38,358 nt of DNA from a virus, in the IMG/VR virus record IMGVR_UViG_3300008120_009909, positions 1-38,358 of that record. One strand, written 5' to 3'. Both the position numbers and the translations under genes were made by a program. How positions within the stretch are numbered: the first letter of the stretch is position 1; each line of letters starts with the position of its first letter. Positions 2-38,358 of this stretch are shown here, piece after piece. The notes beneath the pieces are model-generated. The model made no database searches, was not told where the DNA came from, and saw only the letters and a list, made by a program, of their open reading frames with translations.

Positions 2-2812
2 TATTTAAACGAAAATAAAGAACAAAATATAAAAAATATTAAAAATATGATAGAAGGTTTTGAAATTATTTCTTCTTCGGTTACTGCTGAAGATTTTGAT
101 GTAGTTTTTGAAGGAGAAAATAAAATTAATTTTAACTATAAAAAAGCAGACCAATTTGATTGTAAAATAGTAGTAAAAGAAAAATATTCTAATGCTCCTA
201 TGTTTTGGTTTGATGCTACATTTGCAAATTACGGTTCATGGTGGTGTATTCCTAATTCAAACTATTCTATCAAAGATTCTTGGGTAACAGAATTAACTTT
301 AGAATTTTATTCTCCTGAAAAGCGGTTTTTATTTTCTAAAGAAGCTTTTATTAAAGAAAATGGGATTAAACCTGATATAAAACTAGATTTAGCAAATCCT
401 TTTGATTGTCTTTTCCACAATTATGATGAAATGTTTGTGGAAAAAAAATATGATTTTTTATTTAAAAATAAATTAGATATTGTTTTAGATATAGGAGCTA
501 ATGCTGGAACTTTTTGTAAATTATTTTTAGAAAACGGGGTTAATAAAGTATATGCTTTTGAACCTAATCAAGATGCTTTAATTAACTTAAATTATCTAGC
601 TTCTAAAGAATTAAATTTAAAAGTAATTGAAAAAGCAGTTCATACTAATGAAGAAGATTTAAAATTTTATATTGATAAAGGAAATACTACAATTGGCAGT
701 TTTGATCCCAATCATGTTAATATTAATAATAATGGTAAAGTAGAAGAAATTGTAGTACCTACTATTACTCTTCAAAATTTTATAAAACAAGAAAATTTAT
801 CTAAAATAGATTTAATTAAGATTGATATAGAAGGAGCAGAATATAACCTGATTGAACATCTAACAGATTCTGTATTTAATATAACTGATAGATTTTTAAT
901 AGAATGGCACAACAACACAGATCAAAGGGTTCAAAAATTAGTAGATAAATTAATTTCTAAAGGATACTCTTTAACTAAAATTTTTAACCAAAATTCAAAA
1001 GAAAATTTAACTGATTCATACCAAGATAGTACTATAGGTACTCTTTTAGCGGAAAAACAATACAAAGTTACAGTAGTTATACCTACTTATAATCATGAAT
1101 CTTATATAGAACAATGTGTTAATAGTGTTTTAGCCCAACAAACTTCTTTTCCCTTTAACATCCTAATATCAGACGACTGTTCTAATGATAATACATTTAA
1201 GATTATCCAACAGTATAAAAATCTTCCTAATGTAACCATTCATCAAACCCCAAGTAATGAGGGACCTACTCATACACGAATACATAATCTTTATAAAATG
1301 TGTTCTAGTAATTACATAGCTCTTCTAGATGGTGATGATTATTTTACAGATCCTTATAAATTAGAAAAACAAGTTAATTTTTTAGATAACAATTCTGATT
1401 ATATATTGCACTCTACGGGATGGACTTACACTTCTAAAGAGGGAAAAGATGAATTAGTTAATATGAAATCTTTAAAAGAAGAAATTTTAGATTTTAAAGA
1501 AAATATAGAAGGTAATTATGTAGGATTTGGTTTTATGTTTAGAAATATTTTAGATTGGAACTCTATACCAAATCTTCCTTATGAACAACATACTGATTGT
1601 AGATGGGTAGATAATATTTTATTACTCCAAAAAGGAAAAGCCAAAAACGAAGAATGGAAAGGAGGATCTTATCGTTTTACTCCGGGGGGCCAATTTGGCG
1701 AAAAAACTCAAGAAGAAAAAGATCAACTTAATAAAAAATGGGTGGAATTAAATAAGCAATTTTTCTTAACTCCATCCCAAGAACCTAAACCTATTATTAT
1801 AGTAGATGCATTTTTCCACGATGTAAATGTTTTAACTCAATTAAAAAAATATCTTTCTTTTATTAAAAAGTTAGATTTACCTTTAATGTTAGTTACTAAT
1901 AGTGAATTTGATTCTTCTTTAATTAAAGAGTTTGATTATATTTTATACGATACCAATAATCGACTTTTTGAACGAACCTATAATATACCTGATCAATATG
2001 TACATTTATATTTCAAAAATTCTAATTATAAATTTACTTTGGGGATAAATGGTGATCAAAAACATGGTTTATCTGTACTATCTAATTTATATCACTCAAC
2101 AAATTTAGCTAAGTCTTTAGGTTATACTCATTTTTATAGAATAGAATGTGATTGTTTTATCGAAAATTTAGATCCTGTAAAAGATATTATAGATCAAGTA
2201 AAAAATAGTAATAAAAAAGGATATGGATATTTAAATGGTAATTATTTTTCCTTTCAATTATTTTATATGGAATTAGAATATTTTACTAAAAATTTTCCTC
2301 AAATTAATAATGAACAGGATTATTGTGATTTTATCCCTAATTGGACACAAAAAGATTGGTTAACTGCAGAAGAATTCATAACCGAAATGATTAAAAATTC
2401 TGAAGGAGGAGAAAGCAATCTATTAATTAGACCTGCAGAATCTTTATACACCGATTTTGGGAATTGTTTGTGGAATACCATCAGTACTCCTACAGAATCT
2501 GACAAGATTAAAAATAATTATGTGGCTGCCCCCTTTAAATTTACAAATAATAACTCCAAAGTAGCTTTAATCACATGGAACATCAGCACCGAAGGAACTA
2601 GGTCAGCTAATTATAAAATTATACCCCCTAATGGAGAAATTATTACCTTTAGCCACACTATTACAGGAGACAACAGTCATGATATCTATATTTTAGATCT
2701 ACAACAAGAAGACACCCAAATAGAAATCAATTATGGGGGAGTTTTAAAAACCTATTCTTTAAATACTGAAAATGTTTCTTATTTAGATAATACTTATACC
2801 CCTTACTCATGA
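2..2812 (+). CDS. Multidomain FkbM methyltransferase / GT2 glycosyltransferase, 5'-partial
   Basis: The reading frame is open to the first base of the window and no stop lies before the ATG at 47, so the gene probably begins upstream; residues below count from that ATG. Residues 143-305 form an FkbM-type SAM methyltransferase (DIGANAG at 148-154, FEPN at 171-174, KIDIEGAE at 258-265). Residues 340-590 form a GT2 (GT-A fold) glycosyltransferase with VVIPTYNH, the DDCS nucleotide-sugar motif at 376-379 and DGDD at 428-431. Residues about 597-800 look like a third, divergent GT-A domain with an ECDC metal-type motif, and a short beta-rich tail follows. It overlaps the next gene by 4 nt (ATGA). 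It probably builds and methylates a glycan on a virion protein or on the host surface. The acceptor is unknown. Confidence 0.85.
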   Translation, partial: YLNENKEQNIKNIKNMIEGFEIISSSVTAEDFDVVFEGENKINFNYKKADQFDCKIVVKEKYSNAPMFWFDATFANYGSWWCIPNSNYSIKDSWVTELTLEFYSPEKRFLFSKEAFIKENGIKPDIKLDLANPFDCLFHNYDEMFVEKKYDFLFKNKLDIVLDIGANAGTFCKLFLENGVNKVYAFEPNQDALINLNYLASKELNLKVIEKAVHTNEEDLKFYIDKGNTTIGSFDPNHVNINNNGKVEEIVVPTITLQNFIKQENLSKIDLIKIDIEGAEYNLIEHLTDSVFNITDRFLIEWHNNTDQRVQKLVDKLISKGYSLTKIFNQNSKENLTDSYQDSTIGTLLAEKQYKVTVVIPTYNHESYIEQCVNSVLAQQTSFPFNILISDDCSNDNTFKIIQQYKNLPNVTIHQTPSNEGPTHTRIHNLYKMCSSNYIALLDGDDYFTDPYKLEKQVNFLDNNSDYILHSTGWTYTSKEGKDELVNMKSLKEEILDFKENIEGNYVGFGFMFRNILDWNSIPNLPYEQHTDCRWVDNILLLQKGKAKNEEWKGGSYRFTPGGQFGEKTQEEKDQLNKKWVELNKQFFLTPSQEPKPIIIVDAFFHDVNVLTQLKKYLSFIKKLDLPLMLVTNSEFDSSLIKEFDYILYDTNNRLFERTYNIPDQYVHLYFKNSNYKFTLGINGDQKHGLSVLSNLYHSTNLAKSLGYTHFYRIECDCFIENLDPVKDIIDQVKNSNKKGYGYLNGNYFSFQLFYMELEYFTKNFPQINNEQDYCDFIPNWTQKDWLTAEEFITEMIKNSEGGESNLLIRPAESLYTDFGNCLWNTISTPTESDKIKNNYVAAPFKFTNNNSKVALITWNISTEGTRSANYKIIPPNGEIITFSHTITGDNSHDIYILDLQQEDTQIEINYGGVLKTYSLNTENVSYLDNTYTPYS

Positions 2813-4920
2813 AAATTTGCCAAGTTAATCCTGGTTGCGGATTAGAAATTCCACCAAAAGGATGGGGGGCTATTGAAAAAATTGTATGGGAATTTACTAC
2901 TAATTTACGTAAACAAGGACACCAAGTTGATATAAAATGGGCAAATGAAGTTAAAAAGGGAGAATATGATTTAGTTGTAGTTCATGTTGCTAATTTAGCT
3001 CTATTTTTAGCCGAACAAGACATTCCTTATGTGTTCCAATGCCATGACCATCATGCTTTTTATTATGGAAAGGGCAGCCCAGTTTTTAAAGAAAATTTAG
3101 AAGCAATACAAAAATCTGAATTATCTATACTTCCTGCTAAGTATTTAGTAGATTATTTTGGTTCTAATAAGGCAATTTATTTTTCTCATGGGGTAGATAC
3201 TGAATTTTTTGTGCCTAATCTAGAAAAAAAACCACATAAATTACTTATGGTAGCTAATAATGGATTAGGTGGGGGAGGAGCATATGATAGAAAAGGATTT
3301 ACTGAAGGAATCCAAGTTGCTAAAGGAATAGGATTACCCCTTACAATAGCAGGACCTGAAAACAATGGGAAATTTATAGAAGAAAACCCTTGGGTAAAGT
3401 CTCATAATATTAATTGGGTGTTTAATCCCACCCAAGAAGAACTCCTTAAACTATACCAAGAGCATACAATATTCCTCCATCCTTCAGAACTTGAAGCAGG
3501 TCATCCTAATTTAACTTTGTTAGAAGCTATGGCTTGTGGTTTGCCTGTAGTAGGCTGTATGGAAGATGATTTAGAAGGCATGGTAATAACAAAAAAGAAA
3601 ACTCGTAGTCTATATGAAGGAATTAGACAGGTATTAGATAATTATCAAGAATACCAAGCTAAAGCTCTTCATACTTCTCATAAATTATCTTGGTTTAATC
3701 GAAGTAAAGAATTAATTAATTTAGTTAAAAAACCTATTGGTATGAAAGAAATTTTGGTTAAAGAATACTCCAACACTATAAAACGTTTTATTACTCCTAA
3801 ACCTTCTAAAGTTGAAGTTATCATTGATTTTATTGATGGTGCTAGATGTGAACTTAAAGGTAATTTTTCTGATTCCTACAAAATAGAATTTATTGACAAA
3901 AATAATGTAGTTTGGCAGGATACTATTCAATGTGGTATGTGGACTAAAGTTAGTAAAAAATATTTTATTCCATGGAAAATTAAAATTACAAATCTTACTA
4001 CAAATGAATTGATTTTTGATTATGATTTTAATTGTAAAAATAAAAAAGTTTATATCTATTTTGATAGTAAATCAATTGGTGATACTATAGCATGGTTTCC
4101 TTATGTAGAAGAATTTAGAAAAAAACATGGGTGTGAAGTTATTTGCTCTACTTTCCATAACGAATGGTTTGAGCCCAATTATCCTGAAATAAAATTTGTC
4201 CCCCCAGGTTACCAACCTGAAAATTTGTATGCTAGTTTTGGAATAGGGTGGTATTATTTCAATAATAATGAACTTGATATGAGCAAACATCCTCAAAATA
4301 TTTTAAATATTCCCCTTCAACAAACTGCTTCTGATATTTTAGGTTTAGATTTTAAAGAAATTTCCCCAAAACTTAAAACTCTTCCTTTATCCCCAATAAA
4401 AGAAAAATATGTAACTTTATCTATCCAATCTACTTGTCAAGCTAAATATTGGAACCACCCAACAGGGTGGGAACAAGTAATAAAATATATTCAAAGTAAG
4501 GGATATAAAGTAGCTATAGTAGATCAACATAGAACATTTGGGGCCTCTTCTTTTATGAATACTTCCCCCCAAGCTGACTATCATTTTCATGAAACTACAC
4601 TAGAAAATGTTATGTCTGTTATTAGAGGGGCCGAATTTCACATAGGAGTAGGTTCGGGGTTATCGTGGGTTGCATGGGCTTTAGGTACTCCTGTAGTATT
4701 AGTTTCTTCCTTTTCTAAACCATTTTGCGAATTTACCTCTAATTGCACCCGAATTTATAATGAATCCCCAACCTCAGGATACTTTAACACTCACAAACTA
4801 GATCCTTCAGATTGGAATTGGCATCCTTATAGAAAAATAAATTCAATGGAAGATTGGTATGAAATAGAAACCATTACACCTGAACAAGTAATAGAAGCTA
4901 TTAAAACAAATTTGTTATGA
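2809..4920 (+). CDS. GT4 glycosyltransferase fused to TibC/Aah-like O-heptosyltransferase domain
   Basis: A 703-residue fusion. Residues 1-310 are a GT4 (GT-B) enzyme: GAIEKIVWEF near the N-terminus and the C-terminal donor-binding segment with HPSELEAGHPNLTLLEA at 224-240 (E-x7-E pattern). Residues about 335-410 are a beta-rich linker. Residues 413-703 match the autotransporter O-heptosyltransferase family (TibC/Aah, GT9-like): SKSIGDTIAWFPYVEEFRKK, the GVGSGLSWVAWALGTPVV donor-site region at 613-630 and the family-typical ITPEQVIEAI end. TibC-type enzymes transfer ADP-heptose to serines of autotransporters. The cysteines that form the iron finger in TibC appear substituted here (WHP and YEI where the family has WCP and FEC, and no CxxC). 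It overlaps both neighbours by 4 nt, so it is co-translated with them. The domain calls are strong; donor and acceptor are not known. Confidence 0.85.
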   Translation: MKICQVNPGCGLEIPPKGWGAIEKIVWEFTTNLRKQGHQVDIKWANEVKKGEYDLVVVHVANLALFLAEQDIPYVFQCHDHHAFYYGKGSPVFKENLEAIQKSELSILPAKYLVDYFGSNKAIYFSHGVDTEFFVPNLEKKPHKLLMVANNGLGGGGAYDRKGFTEGIQVAKGIGLPLTIAGPENNGKFIEENPWVKSHNINWVFNPTQEELLKLYQEHTIFLHPSELEAGHPNLTLLEAMACGLPVVGCMEDDLEGMVITKKKTRSLYEGIRQVLDNYQEYQAKALHTSHKLSWFNRSKELINLVKKPIGMKEILVKEYSNTIKRFITPKPSKVEVIIDFIDGARCELKGNFSDSYKIEFIDKNNVVWQDTIQCGMWTKVSKKYFIPWKIKITNLTTNELIFDYDFNCKNKKVYIYFDSKSIGDTIAWFPYVEEFRKKHGCEVICSTFHNEWFEPNYPEIKFVPPGYQPENLYASFGIGWYYFNNNELDMSKHPQNILNIPLQQTASDILGLDFKEISPKLKTLPLSPIKEKYVTLSIQSTCQAKYWNHPTGWEQVIKYIQSKGYKVAIVDQHRTFGASSFMNTSPQADYHFHETTLENVMSVIRGAEFHIGVGSGLSWVAWALGTPVVLVSSFSKPFCEFTSNCTRIYNESPTSGYFNTHKLDPSDWNWHPYRKINSMEDWYEIETITPEQVIEAIKTNLL

Positions 4921-28626: not shown

Positions 28627-29705
28627 TGCCTAGAGGAAAAAAAGCGTCATTAACCGAGGCAGTCTCTAAAGAACTTAAGGCAAGTTTTGACTTGTCTAAG
28701 TTTAAGGAGAAAAAAATGCTTAACTCTAATGTTAAGTTTAAACCTCAACAATGGATTCCTCTTTCTGAAGCATTTCAAGAAGTTACCTCAATCCCCGGCA
28801 TTCCTGCTGGCCATATCGTTATATTGAGGGGACACTCTGATACAGGTAAGACAACCGCCTTAATTGAGGCGGCTGTCTCTGCCCAAAAGAGAAGTATACT
28901 CCCCGTATTCATTATCACTGAAATGAAATGGAACTGGGAACATGCTATTCAAATGGGATTAGAAGTTGATACCGAAATAGATCCGGAAACTGGAGAAATC
29001 CTAAACTATGGTGGGTCATTTATCTATGTAGATAGAGAAAATATTAACTCTATTGAAGATGTAGCTGCTTTTATTTTAGATTTGTTGGATGAACAAAAGA
29101 AAGGTAATCTACCTTATGACTTATTGTTTTTGTGGGACTCAATTGGTTCTGTTCCTTGTGAAATGTCCATTAAATCGAATAAAAATAATAATGAATGGAA
29201 TGCCGGGGCTATGTCTACTCAATTTGGGAATAATGTGAATCAAAAGATTACTTTGTCTCGTAAAGAAAGTAGCCCATACACTAATACTTTGGTTTGCATT
29301 AATAAGGTGTGGACTTTAAAAGCAGAATCTCCTATGGGTCAACCTAAATTAATGAATAAGGGAGGTTATGCTATGTGGTTTGACTCTACATTTGTTGTTA
29401 CATTTGGTAATGTAATGTCTGCTGGTACTTCTAAAATTAAAGCCATTAAAGATGGTAAACAGGTAGAATTTGCCAAACGAACTAATGTCCAAATTGATAA
29501 AAATCACATTAATGGAGTTACCACTAGGGGCAAAATCATTATGACTCCCCATGGGTTTATTGGTGATACAGATAAAGAAATCAAAAATTACAAAGATACC
29601 CATGCTGAAAGTTGGAGAAGTATTTTAGGAGGGATAGACTTTGATATAATGGAAGAAGACCAAGAAGTACAAGATATAACCTCATTTGAAAGAGAACCTG
29701 AGTAA
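28626..29705 (+). CDS. uvsX: RecA-like recombinase UvsX
   Basis: A 359-residue RecA/UvsX protein for strand exchange and recombination-dependent replication. Walker A GHSDTGKTT at 69-77, Walker B LLFLWDS at 166-172, the loop region NEWNAGAMSTQFGNNVNQK and the closing acidic tail fit the phage UvsX family. One-base overlap with the SSB gene before it and with the FkbM gene after it. Confidence 0.92.
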   Translation: MPRGKKASLTEAVSKELKASFDLSKFKEKKMLNSNVKFKPQQWIPLSEAFQEVTSIPGIPAGHIVILRGHSDTGKTTALIEAAVSAQKRSILPVFIITEMKWNWEHAIQMGLEVDTEIDPETGEILNYGGSFIYVDRENINSIEDVAAFILDLLDEQKKGNLPYDLLFLWDSIGSVPCEMSIKSNKNNNEWNAGAMSTQFGNNVNQKITLSRKESSPYTNTLVCINKVWTLKAESPMGQPKLMNKGGYAMWFDSTFVVTFGNVMSAGTSKIKAIKDGKQVEFAKRTNVQIDKNHINGVTTRGKIIMTPHGFIGDTDKEIKNYKDTHAESWRSILGGIDFDIMEEDQEVQDITSFEREPE

Positions 29706-30436
29706 TGATAAAAACAATAAATAAACCTTTATTTAATTGGGGTAATAGTTCTAATAATTTTAGACATTATCTTGAAAAAGAAATTTTTGAAGGAAAAATA
29801 TATGAAACCCTATACCAGGTTCAAGAGGGAGACATAGTACTAGACTTAGGAGCTAGTATTGGGCCTTTTGTATGGGACATTATGGATAAAGCCTCTAAAG
29901 TAATAGCCGTAGAACCTTCTTTACCTAATTGTGAATTAATTAAACTAAACTCAAAAGGGTTTCCTGTTGAAATTATTCCAAAAGGATTAACTAAATATAA
30001 TTATAGTATACTCCCTAGAAATAAAATTTATGATAATATTAATAATGAACAAAATTGGGAAGGAAATATATTTGAGAAAGTAGGTGAAGTTATTACTTTT
30101 TATGATATTATCCAAACATATAATTTAGATAAAATTGATTTTATTAAAACTGATTGTGAAGGAGGAGAATATGCTCTTTTTACAGATGAAACTATGCCTT
30201 TTTTGCTTAATAATGTAAGAAATATAGTAGGAGAATTTCATTTAAGTAATGAAGAATTAAAAATAGAATTTAGATATTTTAGAGATAAATTTTTAAAACG
30301 CTTCTCAAAATACACAGCCTATTCTTGTGATGGTGTTGATATAACTTGGGATTTAAAAAATGGAATTGAGGACGCTACAAATAACCATTTTATAAATTAT
30401 TATAATGAAGTAATTCTTCATATAAGTAATCAATAA
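29705..30436 (+). CDS. FkbM-family SAM methyltransferase
   Basis: A 243-residue methyltransferase: DIVLDLGASIGPFVWDI at about 43-59 (motif I), VIAVEPSLPNCELIKLN near 71-87, and DFIKTDCEGGEYALF near 144-158 (the FkbM acid motif). FkbM enzymes usually methylate sugar hydroxyls. Its position, stitched by one-base overlaps between uvsX and the RNase H-like gene, is odd for a glycan enzyme. Either it was inserted into the operon or it has a nucleic-acid-linked role. Confidence 0.82.
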   Translation: MIKTINKPLFNWGNSSNNFRHYLEKEIFEGKIYETLYQVQEGDIVLDLGASIGPFVWDIMDKASKVIAVEPSLPNCELIKLNSKGFPVEIIPKGLTKYNYSILPRNKIYDNINNEQNWEGNIFEKVGEVITFYDIIQTYNLDKIDFIKTDCEGGEYALFTDETMPFLLNNVRNIVGEFHLSNEELKIEFRYFRDKFLKRFSKYTAYSCDGVDITWDLKNGIEDATNNHFINYYNEVILHISNQ

Positions 30437-31467
30437 TGGCTAAAACCAATTACCTAGAGATGCTCAATTCTATCGAGCCAGAAGAAAACCAGGCTAAGCC
30501 AGGCCCCCATGAACGAGTAATTTTTATAGATGGCCTTAACCTGTTTTTGAGAAACTTTGCTATATTAAATTTTGTAAATGAAAGTGGTAATCATATAGGA
30601 GGCTTAGCAGGTTTTCTTCGTTCTCTAGGTTCCCTTATTAATCAAATTCAACCAACAGCAGTTTATGTTATATTTGATGGGATAGGTGCCTCTACTAATA
30701 GGAGGTACCTACTCCCTGAATATAAAACAGGTCGAAATATAAATAGAATTACAAATTGGGATGTATTTGAAAGCATTGATGATGAAAACGATGCTAAAGT
30801 AGATCAAATTATTAGGCTTATCCAATATCTAAAATGTCTCCCTGTTAAAGTAGTTTCTATAGATAAAGTAGAAGCAGATGATATTATAGCGTATATGTCT
30901 AAAGACATGGCAAAACGTTTTAATACAAAATCATATATTGTTTCTAGTGACCGGGATTTCCTTCAATTAATAGATGATAACATAATAGTTTATCGTCCTA
31001 TAGAACGGGAATTTTATGACGTTAATACTGTAAAAGAAAAATTTGGTATAGTCCCTCAAAACTTTATTCACTATAAAGTATTAGTGGGTGATGCTTCAGA
31101 TAAAGTACCTGGTGTAAAGGGACTAGGAAAAGCAGGAGTGCTTAAACGATTCCCTGAGTTAGCAGAAGAGATTTTACCTTTTGATAAATTGTTTGAATTA
31201 AGTGAACAAAAACTTAAAGAAAGTGTAGTGTATGCTAGAATTATCCATGATTGGGATAGACTATTAAATACTAAAAAAATTATGGATTTAAGTCTACCTA
31301 TGGTATCTGATGAAGAAAAGGAATATCTTTCTCAATTACCTTTGGAACCCTTAAATGAACTTCGTATTTTGGAGTTCATGAGTTTATATAATGAAGATGG
31401 ATTAAATCACATTATTAAACATACTGAATTTTGGCTTAAAGATACATTTACTAAATTAACATACTAA
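30436..31467 (+). CDS. 5'-3' exonuclease / RNase H-like flap nuclease
   Basis: A 343-residue PIN/FEN-family nuclease like T4 RNase H. IFIDGLNLFLRNF with D32, VIFDG near 78, VEADDIIAYM with E146-D148-D149, SSDRDFLQL with D172 and D174, and the helix-hairpin-helix GDASDKVPGVKGLGKAGV near 217-234. It removes RNA primers and flaps on the lagging strand. It overlaps the FkbM gene by one base. Confidence 0.88.
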   Translation: MAKTNYLEMLNSIEPEENQAKPGPHERVIFIDGLNLFLRNFAILNFVNESGNHIGGLAGFLRSLGSLINQIQPTAVYVIFDGIGASTNRRYLLPEYKTGRNINRITNWDVFESIDDENDAKVDQIIRLIQYLKCLPVKVVSIDKVEADDIIAYMSKDMAKRFNTKSYIVSSDRDFLQLIDDNIIVYRPIEREFYDVNTVKEKFGIVPQNFIHYKVLVGDASDKVPGVKGLGKAGVLKRFPELAEEILPFDKLFELSEQKLKESVVYARIIHDWDRLLNTKKIMDLSLPMVSDEEKEYLSQLPLEPLNELRILEFMSLYNEDGLNHIIKHTEFWLKDTFTKLTY

Positions 31468-31471
31468 AATC

Positions 31472-32833
31472 GTGACGCTTTCTACTTTAGACAAATACGG
31501 GACTTCTTTTCAAGTTAAAGTAATTTCTTCACTTTTAACTCATAAAGAATTCCTCCAAAATATAAATGATATTTTATCACCTGAATATTTTAGTAATCAG
31601 GCTCATTCTTGGATTATAAATCAAATTTTAGATTACTACGAAAAATATCATACTACTCCTACAATGGAGGTGTTAAAAGTAGAAATGAAAAAAGTATCTA
31701 ATGAGGTACTTCAACTTTCTATTAAAGAACAACTTCGAGAAGCATATCAAACTTCTGATGAAGATTTAAAATATGTAGAAGAAGAGTTTGCTAATTTTTG
31801 TAAAAACCAACAATTAAAAAAAGCACTATTAAACTCAGTAGATTTGCTCAATTCTGGGGATTTTGAATCTATTAGAGGATTGATTGATAGTGCTTTAAAA
31901 GCAGGTGCAGAAAAAAATATAGGCCATGAATATAGTAAAGACACTGAAAACCGTTACAGAGAAGAGTCAAGAAAAATTGTACCTACTCCTTGGGACAAAT
32001 TTAATGAACTTATGCAAGGGGGGATTGGCAATGGAGACTTTGGTCTTATATTTGGTAATCCTGGAGGAGGTAAGTCGTGGACTATGGTTGCAATTGCGGG
32101 TTATGCCGTAAAGTTAGGTTATAATGTAGTTTACTATACTTTAGAACTTGGCGAAGATTATGTGGGACGACGATTTGATGCTTATTTTACAGGTCATTCA
32201 GTAGATACATTATTTAACCATAGAAAAGATATCAACGATATAGTTGAGCAACTCCCCGGTCAACTTATCATTAAAGAATATGCCCCAGGACAAGCTACTG
32301 TAAATACACTTCGTTCTCATATCCAGAAATGTTCTGACTTAAACTTTAAGCCAGACCTAGTTGTTATTGATTATGTAGATCTTCTTTCTTCAAGAAAACG
32401 AGTTCAAGACCGTAAAGGAGAGATAGATGATATTTATTTGAGTACTAAAGGACTTGCTAAAGAATTACAAATCCCAGTCTGGTCAGTTTCTCAAGTAAAC
32501 AGAGCAGGAGCTAAGGATGATGTAATTGAAGGTGATAAGGCAGCTGGTAGCTATGATAAAATTATGGTTACTGACATAGCAATATCTCTTTCACGCAAGA
32601 AGGAAGATAAAGTTAATGGCACTGGTAGATTTCACATTATGAAAAATAGATATGGGATGGATGGTATGACATTCTCGGCAAAAATAGACACATCTACAGG
32701 CCATTTTGAGGTTACGGATCACCATTTTGATGGTGATGAAACTCCTCCTTCTAATAAGTTTGCAAGCAATGCAAATTTTAATAGCTTAGACCGAGAACTT
32801 TTAGCACAACAATTTTTTCAACTAAATTCCTAA
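31472..32833 (+). CDS. DnaB-type replicative helicase, gp41-like
   Basis: A 453-residue protein with an N-terminal helical domain (1-145) and a RecA-fold helicase domain: Walker A FGNPGGGKSW with K201-S202, VVYYTLELGEDYVGRR (motif 1a), PDLVVIDYVDLL (Walker B) near 290, and VWSVSQVNRAGA with the sensor Gln. It unwinds the fork 5'-3' as a hexamer. Start is GTG at 31472, 4 nt after the previous stop; no nearby ATG fits the N-terminal domain. Confidence 0.9.
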   Translation: MTLSTLDKYGTSFQVKVISSLLTHKEFLQNINDILSPEYFSNQAHSWIINQILDYYEKYHTTPTMEVLKVEMKKVSNEVLQLSIKEQLREAYQTSDEDLKYVEEEFANFCKNQQLKKALLNSVDLLNSGDFESIRGLIDSALKAGAEKNIGHEYSKDTENRYREESRKIVPTPWDKFNELMQGGIGNGDFGLIFGNPGGGKSWTMVAIAGYAVKLGYNVVYYTLELGEDYVGRRFDAYFTGHSVDTLFNHRKDINDIVEQLPGQLIIKEYAPGQATVNTLRSHIQKCSDLNFKPDLVVIDYVDLLSSRKRVQDRKGEIDDIYLSTKGLAKELQIPVWSVSQVNRAGAKDDVIEGDKAAGSYDKIMVTDIAISLSRKKEDKVNGTGRFHIMKNRYGMDGMTFSAKIDTSTGHFEVTDHHFDGDETPPSNKFASNANFNSLDRELLAQQFFQLNS

Positions 32834-32847
32834 AACACAACAACAAA

Positions 32848-33831
32848 ATGGCAAAAAGTAACCTTTTGCAGGAGAGAATTGTCTACAAACCCTTTGAATA
32901 CCCAGAGGCACATGACTATTGGCTTAAACAACAACAAGCGCATTGGCTTCACACTGAAGTTCCAATGATGGGAGATATAAATGACTGGAAACAAAATTTA
33001 ACAGAAACAGAAAAAAATATAGTAGGTTCTATTTTAAAAGGTTTTGCTCAAACCGAAACAATTGTAAATGATTATTGGAGTGGTCTTGTAACTAAATGGT
33101 TCCGTAAACCTGAAGTTATTATGATGGCTACTACGTTTGGAGCATTTGAAACCATACACGCTGAAGCATATTCTTTATTAAATGAAACACTCGGACTTGA
33201 CGACTTTTCGGAGTTTCTCGAAGATGAAACTACGATGGCTAAAATTGAAAACCTTATGTCTACTAGGGATGGTCTTAATGGTGAGGAAGATTTGCAACAT
33301 ATCGCTAAGTCTCTCGCTATCTTCTCGGCGTTTACCGAAGGGGTTAATTTATTCTCTTCGTTTGCCATCTTATTATCTTTCAAGATGCGAAATAAGCTTA
33401 AGGGGGTTGGTCAAATTGTTGAATGGTCTATTAGAGATGAATCAATGCACTCCGAAGCGGGATGTTGGTTATTTAGAACACTTATCAAGGAAAACCCTAA
33501 GCTCAAGACTCCGGAGCTCAAAACCGCAATAAACGAAGCTGCACTGTTATCTCTAAAACTTGAGCTTGATTTTATTGATAAAGTTTATGAGTTAGGAGAT
33601 TTAGAAGGATGTCCTAAATATGATCTTCAAAACTTCATTAAAAATAGAGTTAATACCAAACTGAGCGACTTAGGATACCCAGCAATTGTTGATGATATAG
33701 ATTTAACTGCTGTTGATAGAATGAAATGGTTTGATGCTTTATCAGCAGGTAAACAACATACAGATTTCTTTGCTTCAAGAGTAACTAATTATTCTAAAGG
33801 GCACTTGACTTGGGATGAGTCAATATTTTAA
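32848..33831 (+). CDS. nrdB: Ribonucleotide reductase class I beta subunit
   Basis: A 327-residue NrdB. The dimetal ligands can be read as E70 (in AQTETIVND), E101 and H104 (FETIHAEAY), E164 (AFTEGVN), E198 and H201 (RDESMH), with Tyr108 at the radical-tyrosine position. The first ligand is Glu where E. coli NrdB has Asp84. That substitution occurs in atypical class I subgroups with Mn-containing cofactors. There is no N-terminal ATP cone. It supplies dNDPs with NrdA, from which it is separated by a holin-like gene. Confidence 0.92.
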   Translation: MAKSNLLQERIVYKPFEYPEAHDYWLKQQQAHWLHTEVPMMGDINDWKQNLTETEKNIVGSILKGFAQTETIVNDYWSGLVTKWFRKPEVIMMATTFGAFETIHAEAYSLLNETLGLDDFSEFLEDETTMAKIENLMSTRDGLNGEEDLQHIAKSLAIFSAFTEGVNLFSSFAILLSFKMRNKLKGVGQIVEWSIRDESMHSEAGCWLFRTLIKENPKLKTPELKTAINEAALLSLKLELDFIDKVYELGDLEGCPKYDLQNFIKNRVNTKLSDLGYPAIVDDIDLTAVDRMKWFDALSAGKQHTDFFASRVTNYSKGHLTWDESIF

Positions 33832-33833
33832 AA

Positions 33834-33841
33834 ATATTTAT
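33834..33841 (+). promoter_or_regulatory. ATATTTAT motif upstream of holin-like gene
   Basis: The motif lies 24 nt before the ATG at 33866, just after the nrdB stop. Late timing would suit a lysis gene set between two nucleotide-metabolism genes. Confidence 0.45.
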
Positions 33842-33865
33842 AAACATAACTAAAAAGTTAATAAA

Positions 33866-34030
33866 ATGAAAAAAGAACAAATTTTAGGTATAATTAGACA
33901 TACTTTAACCTTTGTAGGTGGTGTTTTAATCACTAAAGGTGTTATTGATGAAGCTTCTTTTGTAGAAATTTCGGGTGCTCTTTTAACTCTAATTGGAACA
34001 GTTTGGTCCGTAGTAAATAAAAATTCTTAA
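33866..34030 (+). CDS. Small holin-like protein (Pam3-gp28 type)
   Basis: A 54-residue protein: ILGIIRHTLTFVGGVLITKGVIDEASFVEISGALLTLIGTVWSVVNKNS. The pattern of two helices, with RHxLTxxGG in the first and a GAxxTLIGxVWSVxxK ending, is that of the short putative holins like Pam3 gp28. It would make the inner membrane permeable at lysis. It sits between nrdB and nrdA with its own late-type motif. Confidence 0.72.
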   Translation: MKKEQILGIIRHTLTFVGGVLITKGVIDEASFVEISGALLTLIGTVWSVVNKNS

Positions 34031-34048
34031 GAATAATTAATTTAAAAT

Positions 34049-35758
34049 ATGGACAATAATTTAATATCCAATGTTCAAGATTGGGTAAGAGGGAAAGATT
34101 ATCCTGAGTGGATGGATGAAATTTCTCTTTCTACCATATCTAAAGGTTATCTCCTCCCTGGAGAAACACCTAAAAAAGCATACCGCAGAGTATCAAAAGC
34201 AATAGCTGAACGAGTTAACAGACCAGATCTAGAAGCTAAATTCTTTAAATACATTTGGAACGGGTGGTTAGGACTAGCTAGTCCTGTTCTTTCAAATACT
34301 GGCACAGATCGTGGTCTTCCTATTTCTTGTTTTGGTATTGATACCCCTGACTCAATTAGAGGTATTGGTTTGACTAACGCTGAGTTAATGAAACTAACTG
34401 CTTTAGGAGGTGGGGTAGGAGTTAGTGTTTCCCGTATTAGACCTAGAGGAACTGAAATAACGGGTAATGGTAAATCCGAGGGTGTAGTTCCTTGGTGTAA
34501 AATTTATGATTCATCTATTATAGCTACTAACCAAGGCTCAGTCAGAAGAGGAGCAGCCTCGGTTAACTTAGACATCAACCACCCAGATATTAAAGAGTTT
34601 CTCCAAATTAGACGCCCTAAAGGAGATCCAAATAGACAATGTCTTAATCTCCATCAATGTGTAGTTGTAGATGATAGTTTTATGAGACGTTTAGGAGAAA
34701 GAGATAGTGAAGCTATGTCTACTTGGTTAGAAATTCTTAAAACTAGAGTAGAGACAGGTGAGCCTTACATTATGTTTAAAGATAATGTAAATAAGGCTAA
34801 TCCATTAGCTTACGCTATGAATAATTTGGATGTTACTATGACTAATATCTGTACTGAAATCACACTCCACACAGATGAAGAACATTCATTTATTTGCTGC
34901 CTTTCATCAATTAATTTAGCTAAATATGATGAATGGAAAGATACTGATTTGATTGAAATTTCAATTAGATTCTTAGATGGAGTTATGCAAGAGTTTATAG
35001 ATAAGAGTAATGGTAAAGATTCACTTATTAGAACTCACAGACATGCCAAAAAAGGTAGAGCACTTGGTTTAGGTGTAATGGGTTGGCATACCTTTCTTCA
35101 ACAAAAGAATTTACCATTTAACTCAATTGCTTCTACAGCTTGGACACATACCATATTTAGTGATATTAAACAGAAAGCTGAGGCTACTTCACGCCAATTA
35201 GCAGTAGAATATGGCGAACCAGTTTGGTGTAAAGGAACAGGTATGAGAAATACCCACTTGTTAGCTATAGCACCTACAGTATCTAACTCAAGAATCTCAG
35301 ACTGTTCAGCGGGCATTGAACCAATCCCCGCTAATGTTTATACTTTTAATGGAGCTAAAGGAACATTTATTGTTAAAAATAAAATTCTTGAGAAATTGTT
35401 AGAAGAAAAAGGACATAACACAAGTAAAGTTTGGGATCAAATCTTAGCTGATAAAGGTTCAGTCCAAAATTTATCTGATAGTATTCTTTCACCTGACGAA
35501 AAAGAAGTATTCTTAACTTTTAGTGAGGTTAATCAATTTGAACTTGTTAAACAGGCTGCTATTAGACAAAAATATATTGACCAAACACAATCACTTAACC
35601 TAAGTTTTGACCCAACAGACTCACCTAAGTGGATTAATCAGGTTCATATGGAAGCTTGGAAATTAGGAGTTAAAACATTATATTACTTACGTACTGATAG
35701 TGTGATTAAAGGAGATTTAGGATCTAGAACGGCAGATTGTTTAAGCTGTGATGGGTAA
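34049..35758 (+). CDS. nrdA: Ribonucleotide reductase class I alpha subunit
   Basis: A 569-residue NrdA, short because the N-terminal ATP-cone is absent. Active-site residues: C94 in PISCFGID and C283/C284 in FICCLSSIN as the redox pair, N266-x-C268-x-E270 in NICTEI for the thiyl radical and acid-base chemistry, the tyrosine pair in TLYYLRT near 549 for radical transfer, and the C-terminal CLSCDG (C564/C567) that takes electrons from thioredoxin or glutaredoxin. It makes deoxynucleotides with NrdB. Confidence 0.95.
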   Translation: MDNNLISNVQDWVRGKDYPEWMDEISLSTISKGYLLPGETPKKAYRRVSKAIAERVNRPDLEAKFFKYIWNGWLGLASPVLSNTGTDRGLPISCFGIDTPDSIRGIGLTNAELMKLTALGGGVGVSVSRIRPRGTEITGNGKSEGVVPWCKIYDSSIIATNQGSVRRGAASVNLDINHPDIKEFLQIRRPKGDPNRQCLNLHQCVVVDDSFMRRLGERDSEAMSTWLEILKTRVETGEPYIMFKDNVNKANPLAYAMNNLDVTMTNICTEITLHTDEEHSFICCLSSINLAKYDEWKDTDLIEISIRFLDGVMQEFIDKSNGKDSLIRTHRHAKKGRALGLGVMGWHTFLQQKNLPFNSIASTAWTHTIFSDIKQKAEATSRQLAVEYGEPVWCKGTGMRNTHLLAIAPTVSNSRISDCSAGIEPIPANVYTFNGAKGTFIVKNKILEKLLEEKGHNTSKVWDQILADKGSVQNLSDSILSPDEKEVFLTFSEVNQFELVKQAAIRQKYIDQTQSLNLSFDPTDSPKWINQVHMEAWKLGVKTLYYLRTDSVIKGDLGSRTADCLSCDG

Positions 35759-35766
35759 ATATTTAT
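35759..35766 (+). promoter_or_regulatory. ATATTTAT motif 4 nt before ATG
   Basis: The motif overlaps the end of nrdA's stop region and is followed by AAAC and ATG at 35771, the same arrangement as at 10257. Confidence 0.5.
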
Positions 35767-35770
35767 AAAC

Positions 35771-36124
35771 ATGCCCAAATTAAAAGATTTAATATTAGAA
35801 ATGTTATTTTCTTATAAAGTAACAGCATATATTGTTACTTCTTCTGAAATTAACATTACTGATATACTTGATAGGATCAGAGCTACTAAACAAATTACGG
35901 TGGTTAACACTTTACCTTCGGATTCTTTAGACAAAAGAAATACATCTAGAAATGATGGGAAAGAAGAACATTTAATTGAAATTAAATTTTTATCTGCTAA
36001 CCCTCCATCAGATTTAGATATGTTTAAAAAATCAATGACTATTTTAGATAAAGAAGATACTACTAAAAAAATTCAAGGGCTTCAAACTATTAAGTTTTTA
36101 CAAGATACTTTAACAAAGATTTAA
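35771..36124 (+). CDS. Hypothetical protein with capsid-targeting-like N-terminus
   Basis: A 117-residue protein starting MPKLKDLILEM. A hydrophobic-basic helix ends in I-x-E, the pattern of T4 head-protein targeting peptides and of the proteins at 14341 and 24442. The rest is an alpha/beta domain (KVTAYIVTSSEINITDILDRIRATKQITVV) with a ferredoxin-like rhythm. A late-type motif sits 4 nt upstream. Virion packaging is an inference. Confidence 0.65.
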   Translation: MPKLKDLILEMLFSYKVTAYIVTSSEINITDILDRIRATKQITVVNTLPSDSLDKRNTSRNDGKEEHLIEIKFLSANPPSDLDMFKKSMTILDKEDTTKKIQGLQTIKFLQDTLTKI

Positions 36125-36132
36125 ATATTTAT
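36125..36132 (+). promoter_or_regulatory. ATATTTAT motif upstream of second holin
   Basis: The motif lies 7 nt before the ATG at 36140, or 55 nt before the alternative ATG at 36188. An AAGGA that could serve as a ribosome site lies between. Confidence 0.42.
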
Positions 36133-36139
36133 CCAAGGA

Positions 36140-36616
36140 ATGAAGGGTTGTAAGCTAAAATCTTGTGTCACCGATTTAACATTTTACATGAAAACTAATT
36201 TGCTTACAATTATACTCTTGTCAATATCTACTACTTTCTCCTTTATTTGTTCCTATTTTTGGAACTTAACTCTTGATAATGCCGAACAATATATGGCATT
36301 AGTAGGGGTCTTATTTGTAGATGGATTCTTTGGAATTTGGGCAGGAACTAAACGTGAAGGATTTAAAACTTACAAAGCTTTAAAAGTTCTTAAATCTCTT
36401 TTCTTTTGGATAATCCTTTTAACCACAGTATTAAGCATTGAATCTGCTTTTCCTGGAACTGGGTGGTTAAGTGAAACAATAACCATTCCTTTCCTCCTTT
36501 TCCAATTAACTAGTATTTTAAAAAATGCTTCTATGTTGGATTTAATCCCCTCAGATCTGCTAAAGAATGCTTTAGAAAAAATAGATCAACACAAAAATAT
36601 TAATCCTGAAGATTAA
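36140..36616 (+). CDS. Phage holin family protein
   Basis: A 158-residue membrane protein, or 142 from the ATG at 36188, which begins MKTNLLTI and may be the real start. About three membrane helices: LLTIILLSISTTFSFICSYF, YMALVGVLFVDGFFGIWAG and LFFWIILLTTVLSI. The middle segment with LVGVLFVDGFFGIWAGTKREGFKTYKA is the signature of the holin/toxin-secretion family (holin 4 type). It would set lysis timing. A strong terminator follows. Confidence 0.75.
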   Translation: MKGCKLKSCVTDLTFYMKTNLLTIILLSISTTFSFICSYFWNLTLDNAEQYMALVGVLFVDGFFGIWAGTKREGFKTYKALKVLKSLFFWIILLTTVLSIESAFPGTGWLSETITIPFLLFQLTSILKNASMLDLIPSDLLKNALEKIDQHKNINPED

Positions 36617-36635
36617 AAGCAAATTTAAAAAAATT

Positions 36636-36663
36636 AGGCTTGGCTTTTGCCAAGCCTTTTTTT
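36636..36663 (+). terminator. Strong intrinsic terminator
   Basis: AGGCTTGGC (36636-36644), TTTT loop, GCCAAGCCT (36649-36657) and a T run to 36663. It lies inside the spacer of the promoter at 36640-36670. Confidence 0.85.
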
Positions 36664-36670
36664 ATCTTTA
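36640..36670 (+). promoter_or_regulatory. Bacteroidota-type promoter inside a terminator
   Basis: TTGG at 36640-36643 and TATCTTTA at 36663-36670, 20-nt spacer. ATG of the next gene follows only 4 nt later, so the mRNA would be leaderless or nearly so. Confidence 0.62.
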
Positions 36671-36674
36671 TGAT

Positions 36675-37181
36675 ATGAATCACTCAATTGAGTTTGTTGA
36701 AAAAGAGTTATCTAAACTCCAAAAAATCAATTATAACCAATTTTTTTGGTGGAGGAGGTGGTCAGTTAAAAATAAACCCCTTCCTAAAAATTCTCCCCTG
36801 ATGGATAAAATTAAAAATGGTGACTATAATTTTAGTCCCTATTTTTGGCAATTGCAGTATTGTGATTGGGAAATCGAACAAAAGCGACTAAAATATTTAG
36901 GAGACATTGAACGTTTTTGTGAAGAAACAACTATGGATTTTCAACGTCGTAAGAGACTACGTGAAGATCACGAAAAATATGAAACAGAAAATTTGGCTCA
37001 ATTAAAAAAAGATTTTGTTTCTACATTTCGTATGACTAAAGAAGATTATGATGATGAAGTAATTAAGGTTGGAGGGACGGTAGAGGATTTTTATAATCAC
37101 TGTGAAATGAGATATAGAAAATATAATCGTCCTGACAATATGCCAAAAAGAGGTCGTCCTCCTAAAAATAAAATTAAATGA
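36675..37181 (+). CDS. Hypothetical protein with C-terminal AT-hook
   Basis: A 168-residue, highly charged helical protein. The end MPKRGRPPKNKIK contains the RGRP core of an AT-hook, a minor-groove binder for AT-rich DNA. The first two thirds (KELSKLQKINYNQFFWWRRW, WQLQYCDWEIEQKRLKYLGD) have no recognised family. It overlaps the DpdA-like gene by 4 nt, so a link to DNA modification is possible. Confidence 0.68.
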   Translation: MNHSIEFVEKELSKLQKINYNQFFWWRRWSVKNKPLPKNSPLMDKIKNGDYNFSPYFWQLQYCDWEIEQKRLKYLGDIERFCEETTMDFQRRKRLREDHEKYETENLAQLKKDFVSTFRMTKEDYDDEVIKVGGTVEDFYNHCEMRYRKYNRPDNMPKRGRPPKNKIK

Positions 37182-37960
37182 AAATATCACACGAAGTACC
37201 CATAGCTTATTTAAAAGCAAGTATGTGGTTTAATGATTATGACTATCTATTACCCCACCTTTATGACCAATTCCCAGAATATAAAGAATATTTCCAGGAA
37301 AGTAAGGGTGTAAGGTATATAGTAATGGATAATTCTCTTCATGAATTAGGTGTGCCATATTCTAAGGGTAGACTTCTTTCTATTATTGAAGAGGTCCAAC
37401 CAAATGAATTTATAGTCCCCGATGAATGGGAAAATGCTATCTATTCTATGCGTAATGCTAAAGAATGGAGTTACATCGAACTACCAGAAAATGTAAAAAA
37501 AGTAGCTGTAGTTCAAGGTAAATCGTTTGCTGAAATTGTTAAATGTTATCAAACCTATAAATGGTTAGGTTATACAAAGATAGCATTTAGTTATGGGGCT
37601 AATTATTATAAAGAAATGTTCCCCCATCCTAATGTTAATATTAGTAAAGCATTAGGTCGTCAACTGGTTATTGTTAAAATGATTGAGATGGGAATGATTG
37701 GAGAAACAGATGAAATTCATCTTTTAGGTTGTTCTATTCCACAAGAATTTTTATATTATAACGGAATACATCAAATCAAAACTATAGATACTTCAAATCC
37801 TATTATGGCGGCATATGATGGTGTAGAATATAATGATTGGGGGCTATTTGAAAAACCCAAAACTAAAATTGATGATGTTATCAATGATGAACCCAATTCA
37901 GTTATATATGAAAGGATTGTACATAATGTAGAAACATTTAGAAAAATAAATAATTTATGA
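37178..37960 (+). CDS. DpdA/TGT-like 7-deazaguanine DNA transglycosylase
   Basis: A 260-residue TIM-barrel-type protein resembling phage DpdA, the DNA relative of tRNA-guanine transglycosylase. RYIVMDNSLHELG near 46-58 holds an acid at the position of the substrate-binding Asp. EFIVPDEW near 78 fits the second catalytic-acid strand, followed by VAVVQGKSFAEIVKCYQTYKWLGYTKIAF, EIHLLGCSIPQEF and IKTIDTSNPIMAAYDG. DpdA swaps guanine in DNA for preQ0 or a derivative to evade restriction. The adjoining queC, with a 4-nt overlap, would make the preQ0. I see no zinc-binding Cys cluster. Confidence 0.75.
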   Translation: MKISHEVPIAYLKASMWFNDYDYLLPHLYDQFPEYKEYFQESKGVRYIVMDNSLHELGVPYSKGRLLSIIEEVQPNEFIVPDEWENAIYSMRNAKEWSYIELPENVKKVAVVQGKSFAEIVKCYQTYKWLGYTKIAFSYGANYYKEMFPHPNVNISKALGRQLVIVKMIEMGMIGETDEIHLLGCSIPQEFLYYNGIHQIKTIDTSNPIMAAYDGVEYNDWGLFEKPKTKIDDVINDEPNSVIYERIVHNVETFRKINNL

Positions 37961-38358
37961 ATAAACAAGCAGTACTTAGCCTATCAGGGGGGATGGATTC
38001 CAGTACATTACTTCTCCACTTGTTAGCAAACGATTACGAGGTTACTTGCCTCTCTTTTGATTATGGGCAAAAACACAGAGTAGAACTTGAACGAGCCCAA
38101 TCACTTGTTGATTATCTTAATGATAAAGGACAAAATATAAAATATGGAGTAATTAAACTTGATGGTTTAGCTCCTATGCTTAATAGTGCTCTTGTAGAAG
38201 GTGGAGATGAAGTACCTGAGGGACACTATGAGCAAGAAAATATGAAAGAAACAGTTGTACCTAATCGTAATAAGATTTTTAGTTCAATTATTCAAGCTGT
38301 AGCCTTGTCAAAAGCTAACGAACTTGATACAAACGTTTACATCTCTTTAGGTATTCAT
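37957..38358 (+). CDS. queC: 7-cyano-7-deazaguanine synthase QueC, 3'-partial
   Basis: The first 134 residues of QueC, running off the window. VLSLSGGMDSSTLL at 6-19 is the PP-loop ATP pyrophosphatase motif, followed by CLSFDYGQKHRVELERA and VVPNRNKIFSSIIQAVA, typical of QueC. It converts carboxy-deazaguanine to preQ0 with ATP and ammonia. The zinc cysteines would lie beyond the edge. It overlaps the DpdA-like gene (ATGA). Confidence 0.93.
   Translation, partial: MNKQAVLSLSGGMDSSTLLLHLLANDYEVTCLSFDYGQKHRVELERAQSLVDYLNDKGQNIKYGVIKLDGLAPMLNSALVEGGDEVPEGHYEQENMKETVVPNRNKIFSSIIQAVALSKANELDTNVYISLGIH

Follow-up and report, generated by a model that had tools for sequence, protein, structure and literature searches.

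The right edge of the viral genome IMGVR_UViG_3300008120_009909, one complete IMG/VR record (hereafter the window; a linear fragment of 38,358 bp with a GC content of 31.9%), carries three linked genes that probably form the 5' portion of an operon with which a phage makes a 7-deazaguanine base and places it in DNA. That this operon modifies DNA with a 7-deazaguanine we consider very probable; the fuller statement, with DNA as the substrate, near-complete replacement of guanine, and an AT-hook protein as partner of the inserting enzyme, is less certain. Enzyme families, gene order, and conserved residues are supported by sequence or predicted fold, and from here we infer that the substrate is DNA and not tRNA, how much of the guanine is replaced, which end product results, and what the AT-hook protein and a salvage-type phosphoribosyltransferase encoded downstream in related contigs do. 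The features are as follows:

36636..36657, + strand: intrinsic terminator (9-bp stem, T7 tail) between a holin-like gene and the operon
36675..37181, + strand: 168-aa helical protein with a C-terminal AT-hook-like tail, candidate partner of DpdA
37146..37172, + strand: AT-hook-like motif KRGRPPKNK of the 168-aa protein
37178..37960, + strand: 260-aa predicted DNA-guanine transglycosylase (DpdA) of the CP220/immuto type
37328..37330, + strand: codon of D51 (MDNS), presumed general acid/base aspartate, invariant in 13 relatives and aligned with DSGAF of DpdA1
37787..37789, + strand: codon of D204 (IDTSNP), presumed nucleophilic aspartate, invariant in 13 relatives and aligned with CDSSSW of DpdA1
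37957..38358, + strand: QueC, N-terminal 134 residues (PF06508, E=1.7e-25), with the remainder past the contig end

The gene order read from the letters alone in the initial annotation, i.e., an AT-hook protein gene followed by a gene similar to DpdA and tRNA-guanine transglycosylases (TGTs) and then queC, was recovered as three consecutive open reading frames (ORFs) on the + strand (36675-37181, 37178-37960, and 37957-38358), connected by ATGA overlaps at 37178-37181 and 37957-37960. The last ORF is open at the contig end, and its PF06508 match covers residues 4-121. It had also been predicted that further genes for the synthesis of 7-cyano-7-deazaguanine (preQ0), namely folE, queD, and queE, lie beyond the window, and this is confirmed by IMG/VR contig L002 and by 42 related loci. 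L002 is 99.93% identical to window positions 29845-38358 over 8514 bp and extends the window in the order AT-hook, dpdA, queC, queD, queE, phosphoribosyltransferase, folE, and a PRA-PH-like pyrophosphohydrolase. Those of the closest relatives whose contigs are long enough repeat the order AT-hook-dpdA-queC-queD-queE, which is far above chance. Throughout 42 distinct related dpdA loci, each with at least 5.9 kb of downstream sequence, queC, queD, and queE are all present (42/42), while folE or folE2 was found in at least 28 and a phosphoribosyltransferase in at least 30, these two counts being lower bounds on finite fragments. Since L002 completes the gene set alongside a DpdA-like protein, the operon is therefore regarded as a DNA 7-deazaguanine operon, and the core of the initial annotation, a DpdA-type transglycosylase encoded with QueC and near further preQ0 genes, holds on the basis of fold, homology, and L002.

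The phosphoribosyltransferase of L002 (L002:10914-11423) is nearest to hypoxanthine-guanine phosphoribosyltransferases (HGPRT), with a match to TIGR01203 that lies under the curated cut-off of that model (E=2e-33) and a match to HPRT in the PDB (E=4.5e-24). Two types of phosphoribosyltransferase occur in this neighborhood within the clade, as they do in phage immuto, one hypoxanthine-guanine-like, as in L002, and one xanthine-like (L021:13687-14187). In the L021 group, FolE is furthermore replaced by the unrelated FolE2 (PF02649; L021:12695-13711).

A predicted transglycosylase of the CP220/immuto type

The 260-aa protein has no match in Pfam, NCBIfam, or a single-sequence search of the PDB, and in PHROGs it matches solely families of unknown function. 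However, its AlphaFold model, built from 17 sequences with a mean predicted local distance difference test (pLDDT) of 92.8, found TGTs as the best matches in a fold search of the PDB (2pot, E=5.7e-8), followed in sixth place by the crystal structure of DpdA, the DNA preQ0 insertase (7ui4, E=1.9e-6), and then by other TIM barrels. A search against viral models returned annotated queuine transglycosylases as well as R9TGF0 of Vibrio phage nt-1, presumably the DpdA2 of nt-1, to judge from the organism and the protein length. The proposed DpdA/TGT-like identity of 37178-37960 is thus upheld at the level of the fold. In the comparison with DpdA that had been suggested as a check, the profile of the 260-aa family matches 7ui4 at E=0.0071 and aligns co-linearly but weakly with DpdA1 of 9g, CAjan, Arbiter, and phi38:2 (E=3.7e-4, hhalign probability 36%), but DpdA2 was not matched. 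Matches of the profile to de novo designed TIM barrels were disregarded as repeat-unit matches of single barrel segments, and tblastn with the 260-aa protein gave no match in the records of 9g or CAjan.

The nearest annotated relatives, aligned end to end, are the 'DNA guanine transglycosylase' of immuto (MW353176; 36.5% identity) and a hypothetical protein of CP220 (35.7%), with E-values of the full-length homology from 3e-37 to 4e-44. The latter, gp056 (L026:8001-8777), is thereby a full-length relative of the window DpdA in a phage whose DNA contains 2'-deoxy-7-amido-7-deazaguanosine (dADG). In an alignment of 13 relatives, among them CP220, immuto, MA9V-3, and BSP7, residues D51, N52, D82, H181, G184, and D204 do not vary; both presumed catalytic aspartates are kept down to 23% identity, and the alignment to DpdA1 sets D51 on DSGAF and D204 on CDSSSW. 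A TGT-type TIM-barrel fold in the predicted model and two aspartates in the correct motif order place the protein in the TGT/DpdA superfamily, within which it groups, by sequence, with the CP220/immuto type and with neither DpdA1 nor DpdA2. Owing to this grouping, guanine replacement may be complete instead of partial. The CP220/immuto type is reportedly what Cui et al. named 'DpdA3' in 2023 and linked to complete replacement. For CP220 and CPt10, replacement of 100% of dG by dADG has been reported (PMC8306585).

In the route that we propose, FolE, QueD, and QueE would convert GTP to 7-carboxy-7-deazaguanine and QueC would convert the latter to preQ0, after which the two aspartates of the 260-aa DpdA would cleave the glycosidic bond of guanine in DNA and re-form it with the 7-deazaguanine base. 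This base exchange would probably follow replication and, in line with what has been reported for the relative CP220, affect most or all G. The AT-hook protein would hold or feed DpdA onto AT-rich DNA, its gene occupying the slot proposed for the ParB-like DpdB in some of the other phages with DpdA. Many relatives encode the HGPRT-like enzyme, which would turn expelled guanine into GMP and thereby refuel FolE, a role that makes sense because every exchange frees a guanine and a GTP is spent on every new base. As a genome of 100-160 kb with 32% GC holds ~32,000-51,000 guanines, complete replacement would amount to a large flux. The HGPRT-like link suggests a guanine economy, which to our knowledge has not previously been considered. 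The modified DNA would probably act as a shield against host restriction enzymes.

Alternatively, the genes could serve tRNA queuosine, with the phage boosting preQ0 and the transglycosylase modifying host tRNA to tune translation. The fold is indeed common to TGTs, which are the top matches in the PDB, and preQ0 is the normal precursor of queuosine. However, bacterial TGT normally uses 7-aminomethyl-7-deazaguanine (preQ1; PMC8306585), and QueF, which immuto has, was not found in the 24 related IMG/VR records searched; weak matches to QueF in G007 and G011 were not counted, their frames (211-219 aa) being equal in length to the FolE ORFs there. Furthermore, dADG occurs in the DNA of the relative CP220, the counterpart in immuto is annotated as a transglycosylase acting on DNA, and a protein with a DNA-binding-type tail travels with the transglycosylase. 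We therefore regard a tRNA substrate as very improbable.

Several observations nevertheless weigh against DNA modification by the proposed machinery. Besides the weakness of the sequence link to DpdA1, there is no significant profile match to DpdA2 (nt-1 YP_008125322), to which similarity exists at the fold level only, and a survey from 2019 placed the Campylobacter phages of the CP220 group among phages without DpdA (PMC6884629). In the literature examined, none of the proteins in this sequence group has a reported activity. The missing zinc cysteines of QueC, described below, leave the product of this enzyme uncertain. Finally, regarding a partner protein, dpdA occurs without an AT-hook gene in immuto, CP220, MA9V-3, BSP7, and the 159,934-bp record G011, and the DpdA of 9g has been reported to insert preQ0 in E. 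coli without any phage partner.

The AT-hook protein as a candidate partner

Members of the AT-hook family share a conserved YNQF-WWR region, a long helix, and a C-terminal RRGRPxK tail. In the 168-aa protein of the window, the tail motif is present as KRGRPPK, with the match to Pfam AT_hook falling below threshold (E=0.11), and [RK]GRP was found in 149/163 family ORFs, a redundant count that includes fragments at contig ends. The protein belongs to no Pfam or PHROG family and has no PDB fold match at E<=0.001; its model (pLDDT 90.2) is nearly all helical, with a less certain tail. The AT-hook protein noted upstream of dpdA in the initial annotation thus turned out to represent a conserved, dpdA-linked family of 112 distinct sequences, 101 of which have dpdA on the same fragment. 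Of the 11 remaining members, ten have <=3.6 kb downstream, and in L158, a record of 43 kb, dpdA lies at another place. The two genes overlap or abut in 47 cases and are kilobases apart or in reversed order in others, with both kept. Because the AT-hook gene essentially always occurs with dpdA, while dpdA also occurs alone, the AT-hook gene depends on dpdA and not vice versa, which is the pattern expected of an accessory. It should be noted that both genes lie in one replication module and that the scans favor close relatives. An apparent AT-hook homolog in CP220 (E=0.0024) was rejected as a generic helical protein devoid of the WWR and GRP motifs, and a long 'AT-hook fusion' in L174, where an HtpG-like ORF on the contig of a metagenome-assembled genome (MAG) runs into the tail, was treated as an assembly chimera.

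A ParB-like DpdB has been proposed as the partner of DpdA in other DpdA systems (PMC12839542; PMC6392294). No match to ParB_N (PF02195) was found in the AT-hook family, the window, or the 24 related IMG/VR records, and phi38:2 has a sub-threshold one. It is a serious possibility, although one we lean against, that the AT-hook protein is unrelated to the chemistry of DpdA and belongs to the replication module as a regulator of transcription or a chromatin-like protein, standing beside dpdA through synteny alone. This is favored by the five genomes named above that have dpdA without the AT-hook gene, by the position of the gene as the first of the operon, right after a terminator in the window lineage, and by the synteny of the entire nrd-dpdA-que module. 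However, every phage in which the family was found also has dpdA, including those in which kilobases separate the two genes or their order is reversed, and ParB/DpdB was not found in the window or in the 24 related records. At its most ambitious, our interpretation makes the AT-hook protein a novel cofactor of DpdA with no relation to DpdB, which would keep a small DpdA on AT-rich phage DNA so that nearly every guanine is exchanged and which, together with a zinc-free QueC and purine salvage of expelled guanine, would form dedicated machinery by which a large clade of aquatic phages replaces guanine genome-wide; we put this forward tentatively, as a conjecture with the odds against it.

If our main interpretation is right, a large uncultured phage group (>500 matching IMG/VR stretches) has guanine-modified DNA, which bears on restriction evasion and on the sampling of these phages by sequencing, and the conserved AT-hook partner would be a direct handle on how DpdA could achieve complete and not partial replacement.

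QueC without zinc cysteines and the predicted modified base

Canonical QueC is characterized by the motifs SGGxDS, YxQxHxxE, VPxRN, and YPDC as well as by the zinc motif C(x)8CxxCxxC (PMC13329287). The full-length QueC of L002 (8113-8910) contains SGGMDS, YGQKHRVE, VPNRN, and YPDC and lacks the zinc motif. This is the case throughout the clade: CxxCxxC is present in 0/98 distinct QueCs, which retain all other motifs, including the essential Tyr, Arg, and YPDC, and in most of which the former zinc site reads NTSY...SDYKSASS. CxxCxxC is present in the QueC of CPt10, CP21, CAjan, Arbiter, KVP40, phi38:2, 9g, and BSP7. When 37 phage QueCs were placed in a tree, a branch with support of 100/99 had the zinc-less ones, including that of immuto, together on the same side, with long branches elsewhere making the deeper placement unsure. 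A scan of 148 Flavobacteriales genomes for QueC found only a phage-like contig, although its first filter was perhaps too strict to deny a zinc-less QueC in bacteria. These enzymes offer a test of a structural versus a catalytic role of zinc in preQ0 synthesis.

The minimal set of FolE, QueD, QueE, QueC, and DpdA yields 2'-deoxy-7-cyano-7-deazaguanosine (dPreQ0) in studied phages (PMC6884629), and dPreQ0 is the product that we cautiously favor here. DpdC was not found in the related phage records searched, in which a formyltransferase was found in immuto and the L159 record only, and the length of QueC argues that there is no Gat-QueC fusion. A different outcome would be that the zinc-less QueC halts at the amide 7-amido-7-deazaguanine (ADG), so that the phage DNA contains dADG instead of dPreQ0. 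In support of this, ADG is an intermediate of the QueC reaction (PMC13329287), QueC has been described as a zinc enzyme, yet all 98 clade QueCs are without the zinc cysteines, the related transglycosylase of CP220 accompanies dADG, and downstream DpdC or QueF are missing from the related records. However, CPt10 and CP21, which belong to the dADG-making group, retain the zinc site, and the loss of zinc therefore does not by itself predict dADG; for this reason, and because of immuto, the zinc-less QueC was rejected as a general marker of dADG. As immuto combines a zinc-less QueC with QueF, which needs preQ0, and as the remaining motifs are all kept, the zinc-less QueC probably still makes preQ0. 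Taken together, we consider dADG a doubtful product and one other than dPreQ0 or dADG improbable.

The system is of a known kind, and its variant with an AT-hook partner, a zinc-less QueC, and a salvage enzyme was not found described in the literature searched. In addition to a related DpdA and a likewise zinc-less QueC with 61% identity, immuto encodes queD, queE, folE, a phosphoribosyltransferase, and a pyrophosphohydrolase in the same region, whereas its queC lies apart, it has no AT-hook gene, and beside its dpdA are QueF and a formyltransferase-like gene, both of which most relatives of the window lack. The Firehammervirus phages CP220 and CPt10 resemble the window phage as large, AT-rich phages with QueC and a related transglycosylase, but their QueC keeps the zinc site, their dpdA is not beside que genes, and they have no AT-hook gene. 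Phages of the CAjan/Rosebush type, with dPreQ0 at about 30% of G, have a zinc-containing QueC and a DpdA1, i.e., another subfamily with weak profile similarity to the window DpdA; Rosebushvirus Arbiter nevertheless has dpdA, queC, queD, and queE in the same order as the window clade, while in mycobacteriophages a proposed DpdB-like gene precedes dpdA (PMC6392294). As in the bacterial Dpd island (DpdA-DpdB-DpdC), the transglycosylase is encoded with a candidate DNA-handling partner. However, Dpd is a bacterial restriction island and the window system a phage operon, the related phage records are without ParB-type DpdB or DpdC, and the partner candidate is an unrelated, helical AT-hook protein.

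Gene neighborhood and host

The 5' neighborhood of the operon encodes the large and small subunits of ribonucleotide reductase, a DnaB helicase, and a 5'-3' exonuclease. Between the latter and a UvsX-like recombinase lies an FkbM-type methyltransferase gene (29705-30436) that is confined to the window and L002 among the relatives compared. The terminator at 36636-36657 is also present in the closest relatives (L002, L003, L004, L006, L008, L046, and L108) and was not seen in the more distant relatives compared. In the window lineage, this strong hairpin ends just 17 bases 5' of the AT-hook start codon (36636-36674) and occupies the position where relatives such as L010-L019 have promoter-like elements, which end 3-4 bases 5' of that codon. 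These are similar to TTTGG-N19-TATNTTTA, which occurs in five copies on the + strand of the window (6983, 8582, 16997, 20491, and 27771; 0.16 expected from mononucleotide shuffles), several of them ~50 bp 5' of a gene start. The TTTGG-TATNTTTA elements resemble the Bacteroidota promoter consensus, and they look like putative phage promoters of the Bacteroidota type.

The hosts are probably Bacteroidota. Immuto infects Flavobacterium, and Bacteroidota are also suggested by the relative L012, which encodes, between queE and thyX (L012:11538-15052), a metallopeptidase-like protein and a protein with a CHU_C type IX secretion signal. The five TTTGG-TATNTTTA elements of the window point the same way. 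MAG binning was rejected as host evidence, with one relative in a Flavobacteriales MAG and others in MAGs of other phyla. At the left edge of the window (47-4920), two large proteins of 921 and 703 aa have methyltransferase and glycosyltransferase matches, which suggest a possible role in glycan or O-antigen conversion.
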